20,581 nucleotides of DNA, taken from IMG/VR virus record IMGVR_UViG_3300010885_032992, positions 1 through 20,581 of that record; one strand, given 5' to 3'. Made by a program: the position numbers and the translations under genes. The stretch comes from a virus. Below, piece after piece: positions 6,248-17,477 of this stretch; the first letter of the stretch is position 1; each line of letters begins with the position of its first letter. Under the pieces are notes generated by a model. That model had not been told where the DNA came from. It made no database searches and saw only the letters and a list, made by a program, of their open reading frames with translations.

Positions 6248-7081
6248 TTAATATAATCTTTTTTTGCCTCCTGCAGTTAAATAAGTTTTTAATATATTAT
6301 CATCTTTTTTATCAAAATGCTTTTTCATACTTTCTATATTTCTTACATCATCATCTGAAAAACCAATAAATGGAGTAAAATAATTTCCTATTTTGTTTTT
6401 CATAAATGCCTTTTTCTGTAATTTGTGTGACATTCTTTTAACGTATCTAATAAATTCTTCCATTGCATCTATCTTACCTTGTTCTGGGTTAGTTGCAGAC
6501 CCCTCTCCGAAGGAAACAGGATGGAAACGACACATATCTAAATAAGATCTAATAAGTTCGTCGTTGGACATATCATCTTCATCAGCAAGTTCTCTATATT
6601 TTTTTAAGTTTTTAACTAACTCCGTTGAATTTAATCCGTGTTTATTATTTTTAATTAACCTATAAACAGCTTCTTTTAATATTGATGGGGTGTGACCTCT
6701 TGCAGTTACAATAGCAAAAATAGAACCTTTATTAACCGCTTCCACAAAATCAGACCAAGCAGGACCAATTGGAGCTATCATTGAATCTTTTAAAAAGTTT
6801 TTATCTCCCGTTACTCGGAAATCTCTAAAAGGTTCTTCATCAAAAGATATTATAGTGTGTCCCTCATATTCAAAAGGTTCTTTACCAATATCGGTTCTGT
6901 ATTCCGCAAAATCTTCGGTTGACATCCCAACACTATTACCTTCATCGTCTTTAAGATAAATTTTTGTTGGCATAAACATAAGATTATCGTCCCAGTCAAA
7001 TGCATAATACTTCATTACCGGAGAATTACTATCATCCATCATCTCATTAAGGACTCTTCTAACAATTTTTCTATAATTCAT
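6248..7081 (-). CDS. HAD-family phosphatase with a capsid-targeting-like leader
   Basis: The start is placed at the ATG at 7081-7079 (277 residues). A longer reading from 7129 would translate the sheath terminator into a hydrophobic, implausible N-terminus. The HAD motifs are clear: nucleophile and acid in FDWDDNL (D29, D31), IVTARGH with T126, K203 as the candidate motif III lysine, and FSDDD with D243/D244. A cap region lies between motifs I and II. The substrate is unknown; nucleotide or polynucleotide 3'-phosphate are possibilities. The first 13 residues, MNYRKIVRRVLNE, form a short basic amphipathic leader ending in L-x-E, the T4 prohead-protease consensus. This suggests capsid packaging, which is inference. 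An enzyme gene between sheath and tube genes is unusual; its own motif and the preceding terminator suggest a separate transcript. Confidence 0.8.
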   Translation of the reverse strand: MNYRKIVRRVLNEMMDDSNSPVMKYYAFDWDDNLMFMPTKIYLKDDEGNSVGMSTEDFAEYRTDIGKEPFEYEGHTIISFDEEPFRDFRVTGDKNFLKDSMIAPIGPAWSDFVEAVNKGSIFAIVTARGHTPSILKEAVYRLIKNNKHGLNSTELVKNLKKYRELADEDDMSNDELIRSYLDMCRFHPVSFGEGSATNPEQGKIDAMEEFIRYVKRMSHKLQKKAFMKNKIGNYFTPFIGFSDDDVRNIESMKKHFDKKDDNILKTYLTAGGKKRLY

Positions 7082-7150: not shown

Positions 7151-10100
7151 TCACACGTCTTCAAAAGAAGCTCCAGTTGGAGTAATGAAGAAAGTAATGT
7201 CAATAAACTCAAGTGATCTAGTAGGTTTAATATAAATTTTACCAACTAATTGATTTCTATCTAAATCTTCGGTGTCACTTGAGACAGTTACTCTAAAGTC
7301 ATAAAGACCTCTGTCTCTTCTAATTGCATCCAAGATAGGATTAACCGCATTTAAGAAGTCTTGTCTTACTTGTTCGTCGTTTTGATCAAACAATAATCTT
7401 ACGGATACCGCTGAAATCAATTTACGAGCTTGTAATAATAATCTTCTTACGTTGATTCTATCAAGAGCCGATTCTCTTACTTGTAGAGTTTTGTTACCCC
7501 AGATTACCGTACCTACATCTGCGAAAGTTGCGATTGGGTTAATTCTACCAACATAAAGAACATCTCTATCTTCTTGTGTTAATTTCTTACGAGCTTTAAT
7601 TGAATTAACTAAACCTCTTGTGTAACCTGCCGACGCAAACCAAGGGAATGCAATGTTATCAGTTAACGCCAAGTTTCTTGTTACTTCAGATGTTGCCGGA
7701 AGATAAATTTGAGTGTTATTAACACTATCTCTTGTTAATACCCAAGGGTAATAAGTGGCAGTGTAATTGGAATCAATTCCCGTTGTTTCCAAATTATCAA
7801 CAGCTTCTTGAGGGTAAATTAAGTTATCACCTTCAGTTGTTGATGCAACAAACATATTGTAGTCAGGAGTTGTTGTAATATACAATGAATCCGCTCTTTC
7901 GTTTTCAATCATATCAATTGTTGCCTCAACTAAATCTGAGTTATTAACATAATCAATTCCTGGAGAAACAAATACATTTATATTAACCGCTTCAGGATTT
8001 GCAAATGTTCTAACTCCTAGCAAATAAGCGTAGTAATCGGTATTTGCATAATCAATAGTTCCATCACCAATACTAATTTGTTTGAAAGCTCCCCATCCTT
8101 TAGCATCCGGGTATCTATCTGAAACACATGCTCCGTTAAGGAATCCTTGACGACCTAATACAAATCTATCACCGTTAGTTCTATATTCTCTATAGATATC
8201 CCACCCGTCAAATCCTCCATTAACAAGTAATGAGAATTTTCTTGAGAATAATCTATAGTATGGACTAGTAGTATTTGTTGGTTCAGAAGAGAAAGACGCG
8301 TCTCCCACATAATATTTAGGAGTTCCACTTGTTGCAAAACCACTAGAGATTGTAATACCACTAGCAAATTGATCCATATGGAAACCTCTTGTTCTGTAAT
8401 TAAACTCACTACTTTCTAAATCACAAGTAGTTATTGGGTTTCTTTTTCCTTTGTACTCAAAGAAACTTGTATCAAATCCAACACTGTTTGAAATACCAAG
8501 ATATGTTCTTCTTACGTTGTCACCAGAACTTCTAACCGAATCATCCGCTCCTGATGATAATCCAAATGGTGGGTTATAAACTACCTCACCTGGAAAGTCA
8601 TATTTAGTTTTATAAATAGGGAACGGTGGTTTTGCTCCAGCATATTCTCTAAAAGTATATCCCTCAAATCCACAAGGTATTGAGTCAACCGGAGCATCCT
8701 CATTAATTTCAACCATTATGTATTTTGAGTTCAATTCGTATTCACCATCTAACGTTCCGATTTTTTTCGCCACAAAGTTATTTTGTGATGGATCCATAGA
8801 ACAGTTAGTGTATTTCTCAAGAACAACTGGGTTTGAATCTACATCAAAATAATCTCTTACTAAAATATCAAATGTTCTATTTGCAAATGACATATTAATA
8901 AACGATATTTTAACTTCAGAGTTTGCTGAATTACCATCAGATATTGTGTAGAATTTGAAAAGGTTAAATGTTTTAGTACCTCTTAATTCTGAAACAATCC
9001 AAGGAGAACTTGGTGATTGATATTTTTCTAAATACCACCCAATTGAAGACGTATCAGAACTTTGTGCGGAATCTAAAGCGATTAGTTCAGAACTTAATCC
9101 TCTAATAAATCCTTTTCTCCACCCATAATTTAAAAGTGATTGGAATCTTTCTTCTAAGAATAATGGTGTTGATTGTCTTGGTTTACCAAAGTTAGTACCA
9201 CCAAAAACTTTTGCAATATATTGTGAGTCAGATTGTGAGAAAGAACTTTCAAAGATAAAGTTAGTACCTGAATCATTCGTTACATTAATTGCAAATGGTA
9301 AATATGGGTTTTTAAGTGCTCCCACATATTGTCCCGTCATATTCAAAGAAACATTAGAAGTATTTGAAACTTCATATACTGGATTGTTTCCATCAGAATA
9401 TGTTGCAATACCTCTTGATCTTAAAGTACCAACAACTAAATCATCAAAATCTGAATATGAATTACCTGTATAGTAATATAATTTAACAGTCAATGAACCC
9501 GAAAAACAATCTACATTTACTGGAGTTGGGGTTGGGGTTGGTGATGCAAAAGGAGTTGGTGTAATACAAGGATTAACCGATGATGGTGATGGAGTTGGGG
9601 TTGGGGTCAACGTAGTTGACGTTGTTGTAACCGGTATAATTTGAGTTAATTCGTCAACAAATGTGAAGAATGAAAACCCAGAATATAAACCTCCACCAGT
9701 ATTATCAAATAAAGAGTAGTACCAAGGATCATTAAATGGTGATGTATAATCAGTTAATGTACTAGAAACTGAAGGAACATCATATACATTTGTTGATGCG
9801 GTAAAAATAGGAGATAGAATATCATAATCATCTCCGTCTATAGTACCAAAATAACTAATTGTATTTAGTTTAGTAGTGTCAGGATCAACACTTGAAATTA
9901 CACTATTAATTAAATCTTTAATGTTTGTTTCTATCGTTGAGACGGACCCATCAAAACTTTCGTATTGTTCCGTTAAGATAGATTCAATCTCATTAGAAAA
10001 TGAAGTTTCAAATGCAATTGTATCTAAACCACTTGTACAACCGGTAAATGTAACCGAATAAGTAATTGCACTTGGGATAACACAAATTGTATCACAAACA

Positions 10101-10501
10101 TTACTTGGATCAGTTACAGAACTAAAACAAAGGAAATCAACCGTTGTTGGGTCAACATTCGCTTTTGTTGTAATAGACCAAGACGGTCCAGCGTCATAAC
10201 CAGATAATCCAAGTATTCTTGTAATGAATAATTGATTTGATTGTTGTAAATAAGCTTTTGCTATATATGAAGCCTCATATTTAGGAATTTGTGTGTTAAC
10301 AAATTTTTCAGGAGTTGTTCCACCGAAATATACTTGATACTCGTCAAAGTTTCTTACGAAGATAGGTTCAAATGCGGGACCTTTTAAAGTCTCCCCCGCA
10401 ATACCAAGAGTTGTAACACCAACACTTTGGGCTACAAAACTTAAATCTACTTCAGAAGTATATACACCAGGTGATACAAATACTTTACTGTTAGTTGCCA
10501 T
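7151..10501 (-). CDS. Tail sheath protein (gp18-like), with a Pro/Thr-rich insert
   Basis: The 1116-residue protein opens with the hallmark sheath N-terminus, VFVSPGVYTSEVDLSFVAQ, followed by GIAGETLKGPAFEP and NFDEYQVYFGG. The C-terminal third has the conserved contractile-sheath region: YYPWVLTRDSVNN, PWFASAGYTRGLV, a DRINVRRLLLQARKLIS helix near 1010-1025, and FEDV-type end strands. It forms the contractile outer tube that drives the inner tube through the envelope. It is much longer than T4 gp18 (659 residues). The extra length is in the middle, including a Pro/Thr-repeat linker at 299-327 and flanking cysteines. These extra domains probably decorate the outer surface. The leader has the TATTTAT motif 39 bases upstream and no Shine-Dalgarno. 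A strong terminator follows. Confidence 0.95.
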   Translation of the reverse strand: MATNSKVFVSPGVYTSEVDLSFVAQSVGVTTLGIAGETLKGPAFEPIFVRNFDEYQVYFGGTTPEKFVNTQIPKYEASYIAKAYLQQSNQLFITRILGLSGYDAGPSWSITTKANVDPTTVDFLCFSSVTDPSNVCDTICVIPSAITYSVTFTGCTSGLDTIAFETSFSNEIESILTEQYESFDGSVSTIETNIKDLINSVISSVDPDTTKLNTISYFGTIDGDDYDILSPIFTASTNVYDVPSVSSTLTDYTSPFNDPWYYSLFDNTGGGLYSGFSFFTFVDELTQIIPVTTTSTTLTPTPTPSPSSVNPCITPTPFASPTPTPTPVNVDCFSGSLTVKLYYYTGNSYSDFDDLVVGTLRSRGIATYSDGNNPVYEVSNTSNVSLNMTGQYVGALKNPYLPFAINVTNDSGTNFIFESSFSQSDSQYIAKVFGGTNFGKPRQSTPLFLEERFQSLLNYGWRKGFIRGLSSELIALDSAQSSDTSSIGWYLEKYQSPSSPWIVSELRGTKTFNLFKFYTISDGNSANSEVKISFINMSFANRTFDILVRDYFDVDSNPVVLEKYTNCSMDPSQNNFVAKKIGTLDGEYELNSKYIMVEINEDAPVDSIPCGFEGYTFREYAGAKPPFPIYKTKYDFPGEVVYNPPFGLSSGADDSVRSSGDNVRRTYLGISNSVGFDTSFFEYKGKRNPITTCDLESSEFNYRTRGFHMDQFASGITISSGFATSGTPKYYVGDASFSSEPTNTTSPYYRLFSRKFSLLVNGGFDGWDIYREYRTNGDRFVLGRQGFLNGACVSDRYPDAKGWGAFKQISIGDGTIDYANTDYYAYLLGVRTFANPEAVNINVFVSPGIDYVNNSDLVEATIDMIENERADSLYITTTPDYNMFVASTTEGDNLIYPQEAVDNLETTGIDSNYTATYYPWVLTRDSVNNTQIYLPATSEVTRNLALTDNIAFPWFASAGYTRGLVNSIKARKKLTQEDRDVLYVGRINPIATFADVGTVIWGNKTLQVRESALDRINVRRLLLQARKLISAVSVRLLFDQNDEQVRQDFLNAVNPILDAIRRDRGLYDFRVTVSSDTEDLDRNQLVGKIYIKPTRSLEFIDITFFITPTGASFEDV
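9521..9607 (-). repeat. Low-complexity Pro/Thr repeat inside the sheath gene
   Basis: The minus strand encodes sheath residues 299-327, TPTPTPSPSS then PCITPTP and PTPTPTP. On the plus strand this appears as repeated GTTGGGG units (two clusters at 9522-9541 and 9591-9607). The repeated ACCCCA-type codons make this a candidate for replication slippage and length variation. The protein product would be an extended, exposed linker. Confidence 0.8.
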
Positions 10502-10540
10502 AGGTTTTAATTTTTAAGTTTAAATTTTATTTTATATATT

Positions 10541-10548
10541 ATAAATAT
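10541..10548 (-). promoter_or_regulatory. Candidate promoter motif ATATTTAT for the sheath gene
   Basis: Minus-strand AATATTTATAATA lies 39 bases before the sheath ATG. It is divergent from the matching plus-strand motif at 10583, so the 125-base gap 10502-10626 is a two-way regulatory region. Confidence 0.45.
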
Positions 10549-10582
10549 TGTTATTTTAACCAAAAACTTTACTTAATTAAAA

Positions 10583-10590
10583 GTATTTAT
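10583..10590 (+). promoter_or_regulatory. Candidate promoter motif GTATTTAT for the small RHH gene
   Basis: Plus-strand AAGTATTTATATC lies 36 bases before the ATG of the 54-residue gene. It faces away from the sheath-gene motif 35 bases to its left. The leader between contains a duplicated TTTCTACCT. Function is inferred. Confidence 0.4.
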
Positions 10591-10626
10591 ATCTTGGTAT
10601 GATTTTTTTCTACCTTTTTTCTACCT

Positions 10627-10791
10627 ATGGATAAAGAACCTAAAAAGATTAAAAATTTAAAGATATCAGTGGAATCTCACGAGATACTAAAAAAGTATTG
10701 CGATAAGAGAGGAATTAAAATGTATAGATTTTTAGAAAACTTGATCATTGAGAGGTGTAAGGAAAAAAAAGATATCTACGGTGAGAATTAA
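10627..10791 (+). CDS. Small ribbon-helix-helix-type DNA-binding protein
   Basis: A 54-residue basic protein. Residues about 7-17 (KIKNLKISVES) would form the beta strand. Residues 18-29 (HEILKKYCDKRG) and 32-46 (MYRFLENLIIERCKE) would form two helices, the layout of CopG/Arc-type ribbon-helix-helix repressors. No database match can be claimed. It lies alone on the plus strand inside a minus-strand tail module, divergent from the sheath gene across a shared 125-base regulatory gap. It is therefore well placed to bind the sheath promoter region or its own. Its stop overlaps the stop end of the tail terminator gene by 4 bases. There is no Shine-Dalgarno sequence. An acidic/aromatic tail (KKDIYGEN) follows helix 2. 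Confidence 0.7.
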   Translation: MDKEPKKIKNLKISVESHEILKKYCDKRGIKMYRFLENLIIERCKEKKDIYGEN

Positions 10792-11828
10792 ATTAACTCT
10801 TGAATAAAGATAATATCGGACTCTTTTGTATTATCATCCTTTGTAATAACCAACCTTAATTCATCTCCGTTATTAATTTGTATTTCCGTTACGCTAGTCC
10901 CATAAAAATCATTATTAATGAAAACTTGGAATGAATCTACATTTTTATTATCAGATAATCTCAAATTTACGGTGTAATCAAATTTTTGAACACTAACTAA
11001 ATTACCAATAGGAAACATTGGGAAGTATGTTGTTGGGATTTGTGGTTCAGGTTTTTTTGGTTTTCTTTTTTTAATTTGAGTTTCGGTTTCATACATTTGA
11101 AATGTCCTGGTAATTGCAGGTTTTATTTCAAACTCATCCTCATCAATTAAAAACCCTTGTAAAATCATCTCATATTTTTGAATATAAACTTTTCTTTTCT
11201 CAAGATCCAAAACAGATTCATCGCTAATACTTCCTCTAATAATTGGAATATAATGTCCTTTAATAACTTGATATGCTTGTTTTGATGAAAACTTCGTAAT
11301 GACATTTTGATTAAACTTATTTAATTCTCTCATTCTATTACAAACGATAACTACCGTATATTTTATATCAACTGGGACTGGTTGTGGTATTTTATATATG
11401 TCCATACCGTGTCTTTGTCCATCCCAAGTCGGTACTTTCGCATAAAAATATTGTCTTCTATTTGGAATTGTGTATGTGGTTATTGATGGATTATTACCAT
11501 ACTCAACTTCCGGAGTTCGTACAACGGCAATAAACGGAGGTTCAACATTCTTATCTATATTTTGAAAATCCCAAGTTTCTGTAAATTGAGCCCAGTTTTG
11601 AGTGGTCACCAAAATATCAACCATAGGTACAGTTTTACCCTCAACAACACATTTTAATTCGTCACGGACAAAATCTAAAAAACCCCTATCTAAATCCGGG
11701 TGTAATAATGATTTTGGGAGATATGTCCCGTCTTGAGAAATCATATCCGCAATTTCATGCCTTCTTGGAAGAAGTGTTTTCTTCTCAATTAAACTAATAT
11801 CTTTTTTTATTTTCTTTGGTAATGGCAT
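10788..11828 (-). CDS. Tail terminator / sheath stabiliser (gp15-like)
   Basis: A 346-residue protein. Residues about 35-250 resemble the T4 gp15 tail-completion family: an N-terminal HPDLDRGFLDFVRDEL helix, a DILVTTQNWAQFTETW segment, then VPVDIKYTVVIVCNRMRELNKFNQNVITKF near 151-180. It would cap the sheath and tube and form the head-docking surface. T4 gp15 is 272 residues. Here a basic, proline-rich linker (KKRKPKKPEPQIP, 253-265) leads to about 75 extra C-terminal residues of beta character, possibly a small Ig-like domain. It starts 2 bases after the upstream gene's stop, with an AAAGGA Shine-Dalgarno, so the pair is probably translationally coupled. The family call rests on recognised sequence pattern and position before the sheath. 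Confidence 0.6.
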   Translation of the reverse strand: MPLPKKIKKDISLIEKKTLLPRRHEIADMISQDGTYLPKSLLHPDLDRGFLDFVRDELKCVVEGKTVPMVDILVTTQNWAQFTETWDFQNIDKNVEPPFIAVVRTPEVEYGNNPSITTYTIPNRRQYFYAKVPTWDGQRHGMDIYKIPQPVPVDIKYTVVIVCNRMRELNKFNQNVITKFSSKQAYQVIKGHYIPIIRGSISDESVLDLEKRKVYIQKYEMILQGFLIDEDEFEIKPAITRTFQMYETETQIKKRKPKKPEPQIPTTYFPMFPIGNLVSVQKFDYTVNLRLSDNKNVDSFQVFINNDFYGTSVTEIQINNGDELRLVITKDDNTKESDIIFIQELI

Positions 11829-11830
11829 TT

Positions 11831-12343
11831 TTATAATCCTTTAAATTCGTTAGGTCCAACTGGTGCTGCTATAATACTACGATAAAAAGGTTTGAAACCT
11901 TTATATGTGTGTTTAATATCGGAAGTTACACGACCATCATTAACAACTGTATAATATCTAACAAAATTTTCCGTATCATAATATCCAATATAGTCCCCAA
12001 ATTGAATATCAATTTCAAGGTCTTCCAATGTTTTTAAATAAACTGACATAGTAATGTTTCCAGGTTCCAATTGATCCATTTTAGTAGTTCCAAGAAATTT
12101 GTTTTCTGGGGTGGCGATTGCAACATAAGCATTAAACTCAACTGGAGGTAAAAATTTGATGCCATCTGAAACAGTTTCACCATAGACATCGTCTGTCTTT
12201 GTTTTCATTTTATCTACCCTGTATAAAACACAAGTATAGTTCATATCACCAATTAACCACTCTTGACCCATTTCAATCTCTAGTTTGAAGTCACTGTCTC
12301 CAAAAAATTTGCCTAACCTTGTAATTGGAACTTTACTATTCAT
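11831..12343 (-). CDS. Neck/connector-like protein (possibly gp14-like)
   Basis: A 170-residue, beta-rich protein. Recognisable stretches are EMGQEWLIGDMNYTCVLYRVDKMKT (about 24-48), DGIKFLPPVEFNAYV (61-75), LEPGNITMSVYLKTLEDL, and DIQFGDYIGYYDTENFVRYYTVVNDGR near 111-137. The pattern resembles neck proteins of T4-like phages, and the gene heads the tail operon just before the terminator protein, where T4 has gp14. T4 gp14 is larger (256). I rate the structural role as likely and the exact equivalence as uncertain. The ATG is preceded by the TATTTAT motif 14 bases upstream and has no Shine-Dalgarno. Confidence 0.55.
   Translation of the reverse strand: MNSKVPITRLGKFFGDSDFKLEIEMGQEWLIGDMNYTCVLYRVDKMKTKTDDVYGETVSDGIKFLPPVEFNAYVAIATPENKFLGTTKMDQLEPGNITMSVYLKTLEDLEIDIQFGDYIGYYDTENFVRYYTVVNDGRVTSDIKHTYKGFKPFYRSIIAAPVGPNEFKGL
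11837..11842 (-). promoter_or_regulatory. Shine-Dalgarno AAAGGA for the tail terminator gene
   Basis: Minus-strand AAAGGA lies 8 bases before the ATG at 11828, inside the last codons of the upstream gene. This start lacks the TATTTAT motif, consistent with an internal operon gene. Confidence 0.5.
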
Positions 12344-12357
12344 TACGTTTTTTATTG

Positions 12358-12365
12358 ATAAATAT
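12358..12365 (-). promoter_or_regulatory. Candidate promoter motif ATATTTAT at the head of the tail operon
   Basis: Minus-strand GATATTTATCAATAAA lies 14 bases before the connector-like gene's ATG. The short divergent gap 12344-12401 also serves the helicase on the other strand, which shows only a degenerate TATTTTTATATATAA sequence. Confidence 0.45.
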
Positions 12366-12401
12366 CTTTTTTATTGTTATTTTTATATATAAGTAATAAT
12401 T

Positions 12402-14162
12402 TTGGAAGTTACAAAACAGATATTAGAGTTAAAGGCTCTGGATGTATTGGAATCATATAGTGGTTCCAATAACTATATCCTTTATATGCAAACTAAAAAA
12501 GAAACTAACAAAAAGTTTTATCCCACAAGATCTCAAGCGGATTATATAATAAACTACCAAGACGTAAAACCAAAAGTTGCTCGTAAGTGGGTTGATCTTG
12601 ATAGTTATTTTGCAAAGAAATTTGCGGAAGAAAGGTATTTACTTGAAACACCAGAAAAAATTTACATTGAAAAATTACTTGTTGAAAAAGATAAGTCTTA
12701 TCATATTTGGGGTAAATTTTTTGAGAGAGATAATTTGTCCGAATTTTGGGTTCCTAAATCATCTTTAATAAAATCACACATTATTGAAACGGTTAACATA
12801 GATTATTCTAAATACGATCATAGACCCCCATTGGCTCACCAAAAAGAAGCAATAGAAAAACTTGTGGGATCAAGAAGATTTATTTTAGCGGATGATATGG
12901 GTCTTGGAAAAACAACCGCAACGATAATTGCCGCTCTTGAAACCGGATCAAAAAAGATTTTAATAATTTGTCCGGCGTCTCTTAAAATAAACTGGGAACG
13001 GGAAATTGCAAACTACACAGATAGATCTTGTTACATTGCGGAAGGAAAAAAATTCTCAACCGAAGCCGATTTTGTTATTGTGAATTACGATATTTTAAAA
13101 AACTTTCACGACCCAAAGGAAAAGGAAGATTCGTTACTACTCCAATCCGATTTTGAATTAGTTGTTTTGGATGAAGCTCATATGGTTTCTAATGCTCAAG
13201 CTCAAAGAACAAAAATTATAAATAATTTTGCTAAACAAATAAAAAGAGTTTGGTTATTAACCGGAACTCCAATGACTTCCAGACCAATTAATTATTATAA
13301 CTTACTTAATTTAATTGATAGTCCTGTAGCACAAAACTGGATGGCATATGCTATTCGTTATTGTCAAGGATATCAGTTTACTGCGGGAAAAAGAAAAGTA
13401 TGGAACGTGACAGGAGCATCAAATCTTGAGGAATTAAGAGATCGTACATCAAAACAAATTCTTCGTAGACTAAAGGAAGATGTTTTAGATTTACCAGATA
13501 AAATCATTACCCCTGTTTATTTAAGAACAACCTCAAAAGAATATAAAGATTTAATGGGTGAGTACTATGATTGGTTGGATAAAAAATCGGATGAATCGTC
13601 TTCCCTTACAATCCAATTTTCAAAAATAATGAAAGTTAGAAAGGTAATTGCAAATGAAAAAGTAAAACAAACAATAGAGTTTGTTGAGAATATTTTAGAA
13701 CAAGGAAAAAAAGTTATCATTTTTACAAATTTTACGGACACGTTACAGTTAATACATACCCACTTTAAAAAGGAATCTGTTTATCTTGACGGAAGTTGTA
13801 GCAAAGTCCAAAGACAATATGCTGTGGATCAGTTTCAAGACAATGAAAAAATTAAAGTATTCGTTGGGAACTTGAAGGCTGCTGGTGTTGGTCTTACGTT
13901 AACATCTGCGGAAGTTGTAATAATGAATGACTTATCTTTTGTTCCGGCAGAACATGCTCAAGCGGAAGATAGGGCTTACCGATACGGTCAAAAAAACAAT
14001 GTTCTTGTTTATTACCCAATATTTGAAAACACTATAGAAGGTGCAATTTACGATATTCTAAATAAGAAGAAAAAAATAATTGGTACTGTAATGGGGGATC
14101 AAATTCAAGAATCCGGAGATGTTGCTGAAGAAATCCTAAACTTAATCAACAAAAGACCATAA
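12402..14162 (+). CDS. SNF2-family helicase / DNA translocase
   Basis: A 586-residue superfamily 2 ATPase with all SNF2 motifs. These are LADDMGLGKTT (motif I, 162-172), ICPASLKINWERE (Ia, 189-201), LDEAH (II, 256-260), LLTGTP (III, 285-290), LRRLKEDVLDLPDK (354-367), KVFVGNLKAAGVGLTLTSA (V, 485-503) and QAEDRAYRYGQ (VI, 520-530). The compact form with a short N-terminal region resembles SMARCAL1-like annealing helicases. A role in branch migration, fork remodelling or recombination-dependent replication, parallel to T4 UvsW, is inferred. The only standard in-frame start before the conserved region is TTG at 12402; an in-frame TAA is four codons upstream, and the next ATG is residue 29. No Shine-Dalgarno is present. 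It leads a plus-strand operon with the multidomain protein 31 bases downstream. Confidence 0.9.
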   Translation: MEVTKQILELKALDVLESYSGSNNYILYMQTKKETNKKFYPTRSQADYIINYQDVKPKVARKWVDLDSYFAKKFAEERYLLETPEKIYIEKLLVEKDKSYHIWGKFFERDNLSEFWVPKSSLIKSHIIETVNIDYSKYDHRPPLAHQKEAIEKLVGSRRFILADDMGLGKTTATIIAALETGSKKILIICPASLKINWEREIANYTDRSCYIAEGKKFSTEADFVIVNYDILKNFHDPKEKEDSLLLQSDFELVVLDEAHMVSNAQAQRTKIINNFAKQIKRVWLLTGTPMTSRPINYYNLLNLIDSPVAQNWMAYAIRYCQGYQFTAGKRKVWNVTGASNLEELRDRTSKQILRRLKEDVLDLPDKIITPVYLRTTSKEYKDLMGEYYDWLDKKSDESSSLTIQFSKIMKVRKVIANEKVKQTIEFVENILEQGKKVIIFTNFTDTLQLIHTHFKKESVYLDGSCSKVQRQYAVDQFQDNEKIKVFVGNLKAAGVGLTLTSAEVVIMNDLSFVPAEHAQAEDRAYRYGQKNNVLVYYPIFENTIEGAIYDILNKKKKIIGTVMGDQIQESGDVAEEILNLINKRP

Positions 14163-14180
14163 TTTCTTTTATAGTTTATA

Positions 14181-14188
14181 GTATTTAT
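14181..14188 (+). promoter_or_regulatory. Candidate promoter motif GTATTTAT for the multidomain gene
   Basis: Plus-strand TAGTATTTATCTATAATG puts the motif 5 bases before the ATG, in the 31-base gap after the helicase. As with the HAD gene, the spacing would give a leaderless message if it is a -10 element. Confidence 0.4.
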
Positions 14189-14193
14189 CTATA

Positions 14194-16323
14194 ATGAAAG
14201 TTACTGTTAAACATAATAATTCTGGTCTCACATCAGAAGATAAGAAAATGTATAATGATTTTATTAAGTTTCTTAATAAGAATTACCCAGTTGATAAGGA
14301 ATTAACAATTTTATTTCTTGGAAAAAAATCTGGTCATATGTCAACCGGTAGTCAGAATATTAATGGAACTATAAAAGTTTTATCAAAAAACAGACTTAAC
14401 CGTGATATTATGAGAACTTTAGCTCACGAATGGGTTCATGCTCACCAAAGATTAGTTTTAGGGAGAGAAAGAGGTCCGGACATTGGGGGTCAAAATGAAG
14501 ATGAAGCAAACGCATTTGCAGGACGACTTATAAAAATGTTTGAGGAGTCTTATCCACAGTATAATTCGTTAGTTTTTGAATCAACAAGTAAATTACTTAA
14601 TAATATTAGTTTACTTACTGAACAAATTTTATTGACGGAAAAAGAAGAAATGAGAAATGATTTTTTATTGGAGATGAAAAAGATTGGTATTGAAAAATTA
14701 CCATATTCTTATTCCGCAATGAAACAGTTTGTAGATCCAGAGACTATGAACATTCATTACAACAAACATTATAAAGGATACGTTAAAAAATTAAACGACG
14801 CTCTTTCTAAAAAAAATTATAGAGATCTTAGTTTAGAAGATATTATAAAGTCAATAAATAAATTTGACGAAAAAGTTAGAAATAATGCTGGTGGGGCTTT
14901 TAATCATGCATTATTTTGGAAAATGCTTTCACCAAAAAAACAAAGACCTTCAGGTGAGGTTTTTGAGTTAATAAGAAAACAATATGGTAATATAAAAAAA
15001 TTAAAGGATGAATTTAATCAAACTGCGATTGATAGATTTGGGTCCGGATGGGCGTGGTTAGTTTTAACGAAGACTAATAAGTTAAAAATAATGTCAACCC
15101 CAAACCAAGATAATCCATTAATGAATATTATTAAAGATGGTGGATATCCTCTATTGGGTCTTGATGTTTGGGAACACGCATATTATTTAAAATATAGAAA
15201 CAAAAGAGACGAATATATTAAAAATTTCTGGAATCACGTAAACTGGGAGTTTGTTAATGACTTATATTTGAAAAAGATTGGAAAGAAAAATTTAAACGAG
15301 TCGTTTATAAAAAAACAACTTAATGAAGCTGTGACATCATTTCCTTTACACCCAAAAACATTTAGAAAACTCATTAATGATTTTTATCCTAAATGTGATG
15401 GTCAAGTTTATAGTGATGGTTGTTTGGGAAGTATAAATACGGAAGATTGTACAACCGAAGATGGAATTATTGGGGGTAAATTTACCGAACAAAATTATGG
15501 AGGTAATGGAAATTGGTCTATAATAAATAGGTTTGATACTAACAGTAAAGTTCAAAAAGAAATAGGGGTAATTTGGAAGGAAGAAACAAATGGAAGTGTA
15601 GATTTTAAAACTTGGATAAAAGATAATTTAAAAAATTTAATAGGGAATGATGGTATCTACACGGAAAGATTGTCTTTATTAAATAAAGAAACAATTATAT
15701 CCGGTAAAAAAAATGAAAGTTACGCAAGAAATATTTTAATACGTACATTCAAATTAAACCCAGAAGAGGAGGGAATGTCTTGGAAAATAATTGAGCGTTG
15801 TGCGGGAGATATTAGAGATAGAAAATTAGGGCAGGATTTTGATGTGACAATTGATGGAGTTTCATATTTTATTCAAGTAAAACCAACAGATTATACAATG
15901 ATTACAAAAGTTGGTTCCGAAAGAGGTTACTATTATAAACTTCCTTCTTGGCACGAACATACAAAATATCAAGAACAAAATGTTGACTTAATTGTTTATG
16001 TTGATAGACCAAACGATAAGTACATTATCTTTAAGAACGATTTCTCAAGGATACAAACTGTATCAAACCCAAAAAAATTCCCGAAATTTTACGTAATTTA
16101 TTACGAAAATCCGATTGATACGAATATGAATCTGGAAACAGAATTAGAACCAGATAAAATAGAATCAAAACCAAAACTGGTTAAAGATAAAGAAAAGGAA
16201 GCCGAATATTTTAGAGAAAGATTAAAATATTACCAAGATAAATTAAGAGAACTTGGGGCAACAAACGAAATTAGTGAGGGTATAATATATTACAAAACAA
16301 AATTAAAACAACTTATTAATTAG
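14194..16323 (+). CDS. Tripartite fusion: zinc peptidase-like, Mn superoxide dismutase, PD-(D/E)XK-like nuclease
   Basis: Domain 1 (1-130) has HEWVH (H78, E79, H82) and EDEANAFA with E104 as likely third ligand, as in HExxH zinc peptidases. Domain 2 (about 164-360) is a full Fe/Mn superoxide dismutase with metal ligands H188, H238, D324 and H328, gateway Y196, and GSGWAWLV and DVWEHAYY signatures. G234 and Q305 are the Mn-type choices. Domain 3 (about 380-645) ends in a nuclease-like core: E508, D550 and Q561-V-K563, the QxK form seen in Mrr-like enzymes. A charged coiled-coil tail follows (665-709). Linkers at 131-153 (LLTE, LLTE) and 369-380 (QLNE) match the L-x-E prohead-protease consensus, so the chain may be cut into three packaged enzymes; that is inferred. 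The SOD is certain by pattern, the peptidase likely, the nuclease tentative. Confidence 0.85.
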   Translation: MKVTVKHNNSGLTSEDKKMYNDFIKFLNKNYPVDKELTILFLGKKSGHMSTGSQNINGTIKVLSKNRLNRDIMRTLAHEWVHAHQRLVLGRERGPDIGGQNEDEANAFAGRLIKMFEESYPQYNSLVFESTSKLLNNISLLTEQILLTEKEEMRNDFLLEMKKIGIEKLPYSYSAMKQFVDPETMNIHYNKHYKGYVKKLNDALSKKNYRDLSLEDIIKSINKFDEKVRNNAGGAFNHALFWKMLSPKKQRPSGEVFELIRKQYGNIKKLKDEFNQTAIDRFGSGWAWLVLTKTNKLKIMSTPNQDNPLMNIIKDGGYPLLGLDVWEHAYYLKYRNKRDEYIKNFWNHVNWEFVNDLYLKKIGKKNLNESFIKKQLNEAVTSFPLHPKTFRKLINDFYPKCDGQVYSDGCLGSINTEDCTTEDGIIGGKFTEQNYGGNGNWSIINRFDTNSKVQKEIGVIWKEETNGSVDFKTWIKDNLKNLIGNDGIYTERLSLLNKETIISGKKNESYARNILIRTFKLNPEEEGMSWKIIERCAGDIRDRKLGQDFDVTIDGVSYFIQVKPTDYTMITKVGSERGYYYKLPSWHEHTKYQEQNVDLIVYVDRPNDKYIIFKNDFSRIQTVSNPKKFPKFYVIYYENPIDTNMNLETELEPDKIESKPKLVKDKEKEAEYFRERLKYYQDKLRELGATNEISEGIIYYKTKLKQLIN

Positions 16324-16352: not shown

Positions 16353-17477
16353 ATGTCAATAATAAACGAACCGGAAAGAGGTCAACTTTATAAAAAAGTT
16401 AGACATTTATTAGGAGCCCCATTAAGAAGTGTAGAATTAGAAGATGAACAAATGGACACTCTTCTTGAATTTTCCATTGATGAATATTCACAATATGTTC
16501 AAGATTGGTTAATTGAAACTCAATGGACGGGACTACAAAACTTAAACCTTGATACACAGTCATTATCCAAAGCTTTCACAACAAGAAGTTTGGATTATGA
16601 AACAAGATACACATACGCATATTCTAAAATTGTTGGTCTACAGGCTGGAGGTGATTATGTATTAAAGAAAGATTATATACAATTAGTAAAAAATCAACAA
16701 ATTTATGAAATTCCTGCAAATAGGGAATTGAATGAATTATTATGGTTTACTCCACCAACATTAAACAATCTTTTATTTGATCCCTGGTCGTTTGGTGGTA
16801 TTGCCGGAGGAGGACTTGGAGGAGGTGGGGGATTTGCTCAAATGGGTAATATGGCTGGTAGTTATTTTTTAACTCCGGCTTTTGATACTCTATTAAGAAT
16901 GCAAGAAATGAACATACAAAAAAGAATTATTGCTGGAGAATTAACATATAGAGTTACCGCATTACCCGATGGAAAGAAAGCAGTTCACCTTATGAATACT
17001 CCTGGAGGTAAGTTTGACTTTGGAAATTCTTCTTTAATGAGAGGAAAAGTTTGGTATTGGTATTATGATGTAGGACCGGACGATAGAGATAAATGTTTAA
17101 AAAATAATCCAGAAATTATAAAGTTACCATCTGATGTTCCTTTTGATAAGATTAGTTGGCAGGAGTTAAATAATCCAGCTCAGGTTTGGATAAGGAGATG
17201 GTTTATTGCTTACTGTAAAGAAGTTCTATCCAAAGTAAGAGGTAAATTTAGTGGTAATTTAAAAACACCAGATGGTGATCTTACTATGGAATGGCAAACA
17301 TTAGGAACCGAAGCGAAAGATGAAAAAACAAAATTAATTGAGGAATTAATTGGTGCCGAAGGTAGACTTACAAGATTAAAACCAGAGAAGGTTATGGAAA
17401 GAGAAGCATTAATTGCTGAGAATTTAAACAAAACTTTAAAATTCAGAGCAATGCCAAGACAAATATATATTATATGA
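16353..17477 (+). CDS. Neck protein (gp13-like)
   Basis: A 374-residue protein. It has an N-terminal helical region (KKVRHLLGAPLRSVELEDEQMDTLLEFSIDEY, about 14-45), a central glycine-rich loop (GGIAGGGLGGGGGFAQMG, 148-165), and a conserved-looking C-terminal half. That half contains WIRRWFIAYCKEVLSKVRGKFSG (281-303), then a helix of charged residues and a final FRAMPRQIYII. Adaptor or neck proteins such as T4 gp13 share this layout: helix-rich, with an arm ending in a beta strand that joins the connector ring. T4 gp13 is 309 residues. It would link the portal vertex to the tail terminator. It is encoded on the plus strand, away from the other tail genes. The family call is from pattern and context; the structural role is more certain than the name. 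Confidence 0.55.
   Translation: MSIINEPERGQLYKKVRHLLGAPLRSVELEDEQMDTLLEFSIDEYSQYVQDWLIETQWTGLQNLNLDTQSLSKAFTTRSLDYETRYTYAYSKIVGLQAGGDYVLKKDYIQLVKNQQIYEIPANRELNELLWFTPPTLNNLLFDPWSFGGIAGGGLGGGGGFAQMGNMAGSYFLTPAFDTLLRMQEMNIQKRIIAGELTYRVTALPDGKKAVHLMNTPGGKFDFGNSSLMRGKVWYWYYDVGPDDRDKCLKNNPEIIKLPSDVPFDKISWQELNNPAQVWIRRWFIAYCKEVLSKVRGKFSGNLKTPDGDLTMEWQTLGTEAKDEKTKLIEELIGAEGRLTRLKPEKVMEREALIAENLNKTLKFRAMPRQIYII

Follow-up and report, generated by a model that had tools for sequence, protein, structure and literature searches.

In phage T4, the internal proteins IPI-IPIII and Alt are cargo of the prohead core that is cut by the protease gp21 after L/I-x-E (PMC9026906), as in Alt at ITE-6 and LTE-619 (PMC5694885), retained in the head and ejected. 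Staphylococcal nuclease packaged in the T4 head digests the phage DNA only upon addition of calcium (PMC9026906); the T4 head thus tolerates a foreign nuclease. The superoxide dismutase (SOD) of PBCV-1 is a late gene product that is packaged in the virion and thought to lower early superoxide, and cells infected with this virus contain less superoxide than those infected with a virus lacking the SOD gene (PMC7019647); SOD is also among the virion proteins listed for giant viruses (PMC9405923). Phage polyvalent proteins are multidomain proteins with a zincin metallopeptidase (MPTase) as hub domain, which are believed to enter the host together with the DNA and to undergo processing (Iyer et al. 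2017, PMC5512222). Bacterial polymorphic toxins combine a constant N-terminal part with an exchangeable C-terminal nuclease at one locus. To our knowledge, no enzyme polyprotein that is processed by a prohead protease and has exchangeable modules has been described in the phages known so far.

The window analyzed here, a 20.6-kb fragment (20,581 nucleotides) of a viral record, contains a single 709-aa open reading frame (ORF) that starts with ATG, has no internal stops and is ordered as peptidase, linker, MnSOD, linker and nuclease (Table 1). The carriers of this gene are large freshwater T4-like (jumbo) phages. We propose, with a probability of roughly 0.6, that it encodes a late cargo polyprotein of these phages, which would be packaged in the capsid and cut by the prohead protease, and whose enzymes would be ejected with the DNA. 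A preliminary description of the window had read the frame as uninterrupted over 709 residues and as comprising a zinc peptidase-like domain with HEWVH, a Mn SOD with four metal ligands and a PD-(D/E)XK-like nuclease; the frame and all three assignments held, whereas the third part turned out not to be fixed, unrelated modules being swapped in among relatives. The same architecture, which that description proposed to look for in metagenomic phage genomes, was present in at least 34 distinct sequences from independent assemblies, and some contigs with the same three-part frame were 290 kb long. With this many distinct sequences carrying the window's type of nuclease (class A), constant flanks and no stop, an assembly error or a frameshift fusion was ruled out.

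Table 1. Positions of the fusion gene, its parts and other features (window coordinates, except where a contig is named)
Feature	Position	Strand	Basis
Whole ORF, 709 aa	14194..16323	+	ORF list, translation
TATTTAT element, 12 nt before ATG, candidate late promoter	14182..14188	+	common to sheath, tube and neck genes
Zincin-like metallopeptidase domain, residues 1-120	14194..14553	+	AF2 topology, Foldseek, sub-threshold Pfam
HEWVH, residues 78-82	14425..14439	+	H78, E79, H82 invariant in 51/51 rows
E102/E104, candidate third ligand	14497-14505	+	invariant in 51/51 rows
Linker 1, residues 122-160	14557..14673	+	conserved [hydrophobic]-x-Glu; low pLDDT
Mn-type superoxide dismutase, residues 161-358	14674..15267	+	Pfam, fold Z, invariant ligands
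Junction 2, residues 359-382, module-exchange breakpoint	15268..15339	+	two LNE motifs: E369 (15298-15300), E378 (15325-15327)
Class-A PD-(D/E)XK-like nuclease module, residues 383-709	15340..16320	+	E508, D548, Q561-V-K563; AF2
SNF2-type DNA helicase, constant upstream neighbour	12402..14162	+	locus comparison
Head-tail adaptor (neck) protein, constant downstream neighbour	16353..17477	+	PHROG 211, locus comparison
HAD-like protein, leader MNYRKIVRRVLNE, second candidate packaged enzyme	6248..7081	-	sequence
Small leader-like genes	L047 4981-5912, L056 5554-5928, L073 5627-5929

Pfam search of the 709-aa protein gave SOD as the sole match above threshold, and an AlphaFold2 (AF2) model based on a 51-row alignment consisted of three folded parts and two disordered linkers, with pLDDT below 50 at residues 130-147, 149-171 and 364-381. 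The first part had the topology b-a-b-b-a(HEXXH)-a of a minimal zincin (E3-8, H14-30, E37-42, E52-54, E59-63, H69-87 and H100-119), with HEXXH on one helix, a Glu on the next and a small beta sheet before them; the catalytic residues of HEWVH, as well as E102 and E104, were invariant in the alignment. Its nearest viral models in Foldseek included IrrE-like phage proteins. No curated Pfam peptidase family matched residues 1-120 above the cut-off, the sub-threshold matches, several of which were zinc-peptidase families, including SprT-like, M91, M78 and DUF5700, and a PDB sequence search with this domain gave no significant match. Residues 1-120 are, as judged from these residues and the predicted topology, a zincin-type HEXXH domain that would be expected to act as a peptidase.

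The second part matched Pfam Sod_Fe_N and Sod_Fe_C at residues 167-356 (E 1e-21 and 3e-39, respectively), and comparison of its fold with Mn/Fe SODs gave Z of about 22 and an rmsd of 2.5-3.0 over about 193 residues. The four metal ligands (H188, H238, D324 and H328), the gateway Tyr (Y196) and Q305 of the MnSOD type were invariant in all 51 rows, and so were the Gly residues G234 and G322; we take Q305, G234 and G322 as the Mn-type signature, by which manganese is the predicted metal. By domains, fold and ligands, residues 161-358 are a complete MnSOD, for which dismutase activity is predicted.

In the third part, no class-A nuclease deviated at E508, Q561 or K563, not even standalone relatives of 24-30% identity. 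Position 550, proposed in the preliminary description as the catalytic Asp beside these three residues, varies (V/I/D/E), and the invariant Asp is D548. The resulting E-D-QxK signature resembles that of Mrr-type PD-(D/E)XK nucleases. Foldseek found one viral model annotated as PD(D/E)XK that matched the module weakly (prob 0.97, E 0.05), while the lists of PDB fold matches for the full-length model were filled by SODs; a PDB sequence search with the class-A nuclease gave nothing significant, and PADLOC had no match for the window protein. Invariant residues, AF2 topology and the viral match suggest that the module is a PD-(D/E)XK-like nuclease. Among 84,980 cellular species, no genome contained the class-A nuclease, and the peptidase domain was found only in one Prochlorococcus single-cell contig.

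In IMG/VR, scans detected 145 relatives of the protein as a whole; for single parts the numbers were 48 (class-A nuclease), 49 (another C-terminal module, class B) and 432 (peptidase domain). Sorting of ORFs by domain distinguished 1) peptidase-SOD-A in at least 34 distinct sequences, 2) peptidase-SOD-B in at least 36, 3) peptidase-SOD-D in at least 8, and 4) peptidase-SOD with none of the three in at least 50, a few of them with smaller modules. The peptidase-SOD core is constant (65-86% identical) and located at a fixed locus between the helicase and the neck gene, and the C-terminal slot is either empty or filled by A, B or D (about 340 aa each), by small modules or by module strings with up to five members. 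For instance, L110 encodes peptidase, SOD, a small module and A, and L111 (2108-4981) encodes a 958-aa string of five modules, namely peptidase and SOD, then a small unknown module in duplicate and the class-A nuclease. Class A is nuclease-like, and class B has a restriction-endonuclease fold: its predicted structure (pLDDT 89) had restriction endonucleases as top PDB fold matches (Z up to 8.5, rmsd 4.1, 164 residues aligned), the best being HinP1I, NhoI, Eco15I and PvuII. A class-D module with no known fold (L065, 7090-8193) contains an FFEVKK motif, and a weak Cas6 match (E 5e-4) was returned for this class by PADLOC. BLAST detected no kinship among A, B and D, and profile comparison with hhalign gave no relation of A to B or of A to D. 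Among known phage records, matches were to SOD only, plus one cyanophage peptidase fragment; UniProt A0A6J5L953, named 'superoxide dismutase', seems to be a peptidase-SOD fusion that apparently passed unremarked.

A tree built from 69 peptidase-SOD cores requires at least 18 switches of C-terminal type and places the window, itself of class A, among class-B members. Alignment of the window with the DNA of a class-B relative (L008) revealed an 84% match from 8193 to 15267 and a 79% match from 16331 on, with no match between 15267 and 16331: the third module alone has been replaced, exactly from the end of SOD to just past the stop. Recombination at the linker is our proposed mechanism for replacing the nuclease, and such turnover would fit an effector engaged in an arms race against hosts or competing elements. 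No separate downstream nuclease gene was found in the SOD-terminal class, the neck gene being directly next. An apparent match past the stop in L056 and L061 proved to consist of untranslated sequence and the first part of the neck gene, the two genes sharing a reading frame there. In every locus examined the helicase lay upstream and the neck gene adjoined the fusion gene downstream, as it might if the product were a structural head or neck protein with moonlighting enzymatic domains; this is highly improbable, since the catalytic residues are all strictly kept and the C-terminal third is dispensable and replaceable, unlike a structural part.

Examination of the two linkers revealed motifs of the kind cut by gp21. 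The density of [LI]xE per 100 residues was 8.0 in junction 2, where composition predicts 1.8, and no more than 0.5-0.6 within the folded cores of peptidase and SOD. L/I-x-E was present in 64 of 64 distinct junctions from four C-terminal groups, mostly 8-10 residues past SOD, and in none of 7 distinct tails of SOD-terminal relatives; in L111 it was found at every joint, preceding each of the three extra modules. Such sites between functional parts are what characterizes a T4 gp21 substrate. Linker 1 has conserved [hydrophobic]-x-Glu at E129, E143, E149 and E160, the last immediately before Met161 of SOD. The Glu never varied at 129, 160, 369 and 378, and its conservation at 143 was 98%; at the conserved sites P3 was hydrophobic and P2 mostly variable. 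Linker 1 is also rich in Leu and Glu (LxE 9.4 versus 4.7 expected, ExL 6.8, LxxE 7.8), and as its signal is just twofold over composition, an amphipathic Leu/Glu-rich helix could explain part of it. This helix would suit an uncleaved, cytoplasmic multifunctional enzyme, in other words an auxiliary metabolic gene (AMG) product made during infection, in which SOD would protect host metabolism, the nuclease would degrade host DNA and the linkers would be flexible or coiled-coil tethers. Phage SOD genes have indeed been read as oxidative-stress AMGs (e.g. PMC12542629). We consider this improbable, in that the motif accompanies all junctions regardless of which module comes next and is missing from proteins with no further module.

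The 290-kb relative G001 encodes a gp21-type S77 prohead protease (E 1e-23) and gp23, neither protease nor capsid gene being found within the 20-kb fragment of the window itself. The N-terminus of G001 gp23, FLINE/ATSE, aligns with the T4 cut FLTE/AEIGG and with GLNE/AVVNG, the annotated KVP40 cut; the sequence at the window junction is QLNE/AVTSF. Cleavage of the linkers by the N-terminal zinc peptidase, either after delivery or in the producing cell, would make the product a self-processing effector of the polyvalent type, in which zincin MPTases are proposed to be the processing domain (PMC5512222), and none of the fused genes lacks the peptidase. We regard such self-processing as unlikely: the motif in the linkers agrees with what T4-type prohead proteases are known to cut and with the cleavage site of the major capsid protein (MCP), and the 7 distinct tails free of a third module lack the second motif yet keep the peptidase. 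No N-terminal targeting peptide of the T4 type (CTS) was found on the polyprotein; its N-terminus is the peptidase fold itself in the AF2 model, and residue 129 is the first conserved site.

The sequence TATTTAT lies within 80 nt upstream of 81 of the 285 G001 genes, compared with 10 of 458 background coding windows, mostly at a distance of 11-14 or 19-23 nt. It precedes the genes for MCP, protease and scaffold in G001, as well as the genes for sheath, tube, neck and the fusion protein, and structural genes often have it 11-13 nt ahead of the start codon; in the window it was found upstream of 4617(-), 6133(-), 7081(-), 10501(-), 12343(-), 14194(+) and 16353(+), and was absent before the helicase and polymerase genes. 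This shared upstream position makes TATTTAT a candidate late promoter element, which possibly gives near-leaderless mRNAs, and no paper on TATTTAT late promoters was found in the literature. An element common to structural genes would be late for an enzyme of host metabolism, and a free active nuclease expressed late would be expected to endanger progeny DNA, which argue further against an AMG. It was also noticed that the sheath protein encoded in the window at 7151-10501 (-), with its 1116 aa, far exceeds T4 gp18 in length and contains a low-complexity insert rich in Thr and Pro.

Several G001 proteins start with leaders such as MKRIVRLTESDLTRIVRRVISE. A strict leader pattern was found in 14 of 285 N-terminal windows of G001 versus 4 of 1671 others, a 22-fold enrichment (odds ratio, p 3e-9), whereas leader-bearing genes were only mildly enriched for TATTTAT (p 0.016 for the broad pattern, 0.07 for the strict one). 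Standalone proteins related to the class-A or class-B modules also bear short N-terminal leaders. In the Prochlorococcus contig (L272, 4449-5345), the peptidase domain is C-terminal in a 299-aa frame with MKSLIKKILKEE near its start, the same type of leader with other content. The HAD-like protein of the window, which contains YAFDWDDNLM and is conserved in G001 at 34847-35746, is likely another packaged enzyme. Between helicase and fusion gene, some relatives have small genes with leader-like N-termini, MKKTIRLTESDLARIVRRVIREE and NNSRSQTKIRKTQQVNLLAEERYLK, which form a possible cargo island.

By our proposal, the polyprotein would be made late alongside the virion proteins and enter the prohead core, where the gp21-type protease would cut after [L/I]-x-E in both linkers and so set free three enzymes: the small zinc metallopeptidase, the MnSOD in active form and the nuclease. 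The freed enzymes would remain in the head and pass into the host with the genome; SOD would then clear superoxide early in infection, the peptidase would cleave some host protein and the nuclease would attack DNA other than the phage's own. We infer this packaging, cleavage and ejection, as well as the activities and targets, from sequence and predicted structure. The preliminary description had suggested the virion as carrier of the enzymes, and this idea, while still an interpretation, gains independent support from the linker motifs, the upstream element, gp21 and gp23 in a relative and the leaders. Its further reading, in which the peptidase would modify the host, SOD would defend against oxidative stress and the package would disable the host, is likewise an interpretation. 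The accompanying picture of one protein with three functions is probably wrong, as the gene looks like a polyprotein meant for cleavage. We lean towards the broader view that phages encode head cargo as a polyprotein with one slot serving as a cassette for interchangeable nucleases or other effectors. If this is true, T4-like jumbo phages could deliver several enzymes together in fixed proportion, the SOD would be a candidate for one carried inside a phage particle, the exchanged slot would serve as a natural inventory of nucleases tolerated by a phage in the vicinity of its own DNA, and [L/I]xE joints, leaders and the shared upstream element would provide a rule for finding packaged effectors in uncultured phages.

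The route proposed here is that of the T4 internal proteins and Alt, and the C-terminal modules vary as T4 internal proteins do between related phages. T4 cargo, however, consists of single products with N-terminal targeting peptides, whereas here the enzymes are in tandem with internal sites and no leader, and SOD is included. PBCV-1 A245R is a Cu/Zn SOD, and like the Megavirus SOD it is a standalone protein of a eukaryotic virus, with a Cu/Zn fold unrelated to the SOD described here. Like polyvalent proteins, the fusion protein combines a zincin MPTase with further effector or enzyme domains; it differs in its constant MPTase-SOD core, its one exchangeable slot and the prohead-protease motifs at its joints, and the word 'superoxide' is absent from the polyvalent-protein paper (PMC5512222). 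In the loci examined, no immunity gene was found beside the fusion gene, the neck gene being directly next. The constant N-terminal part and the exchangeable C-terminus, evident from the 18 type changes on the core tree and the DNA breakpoints, are shared with polymorphic toxins, for which the vehicle is a secretion system, whereas here it would be the virion.
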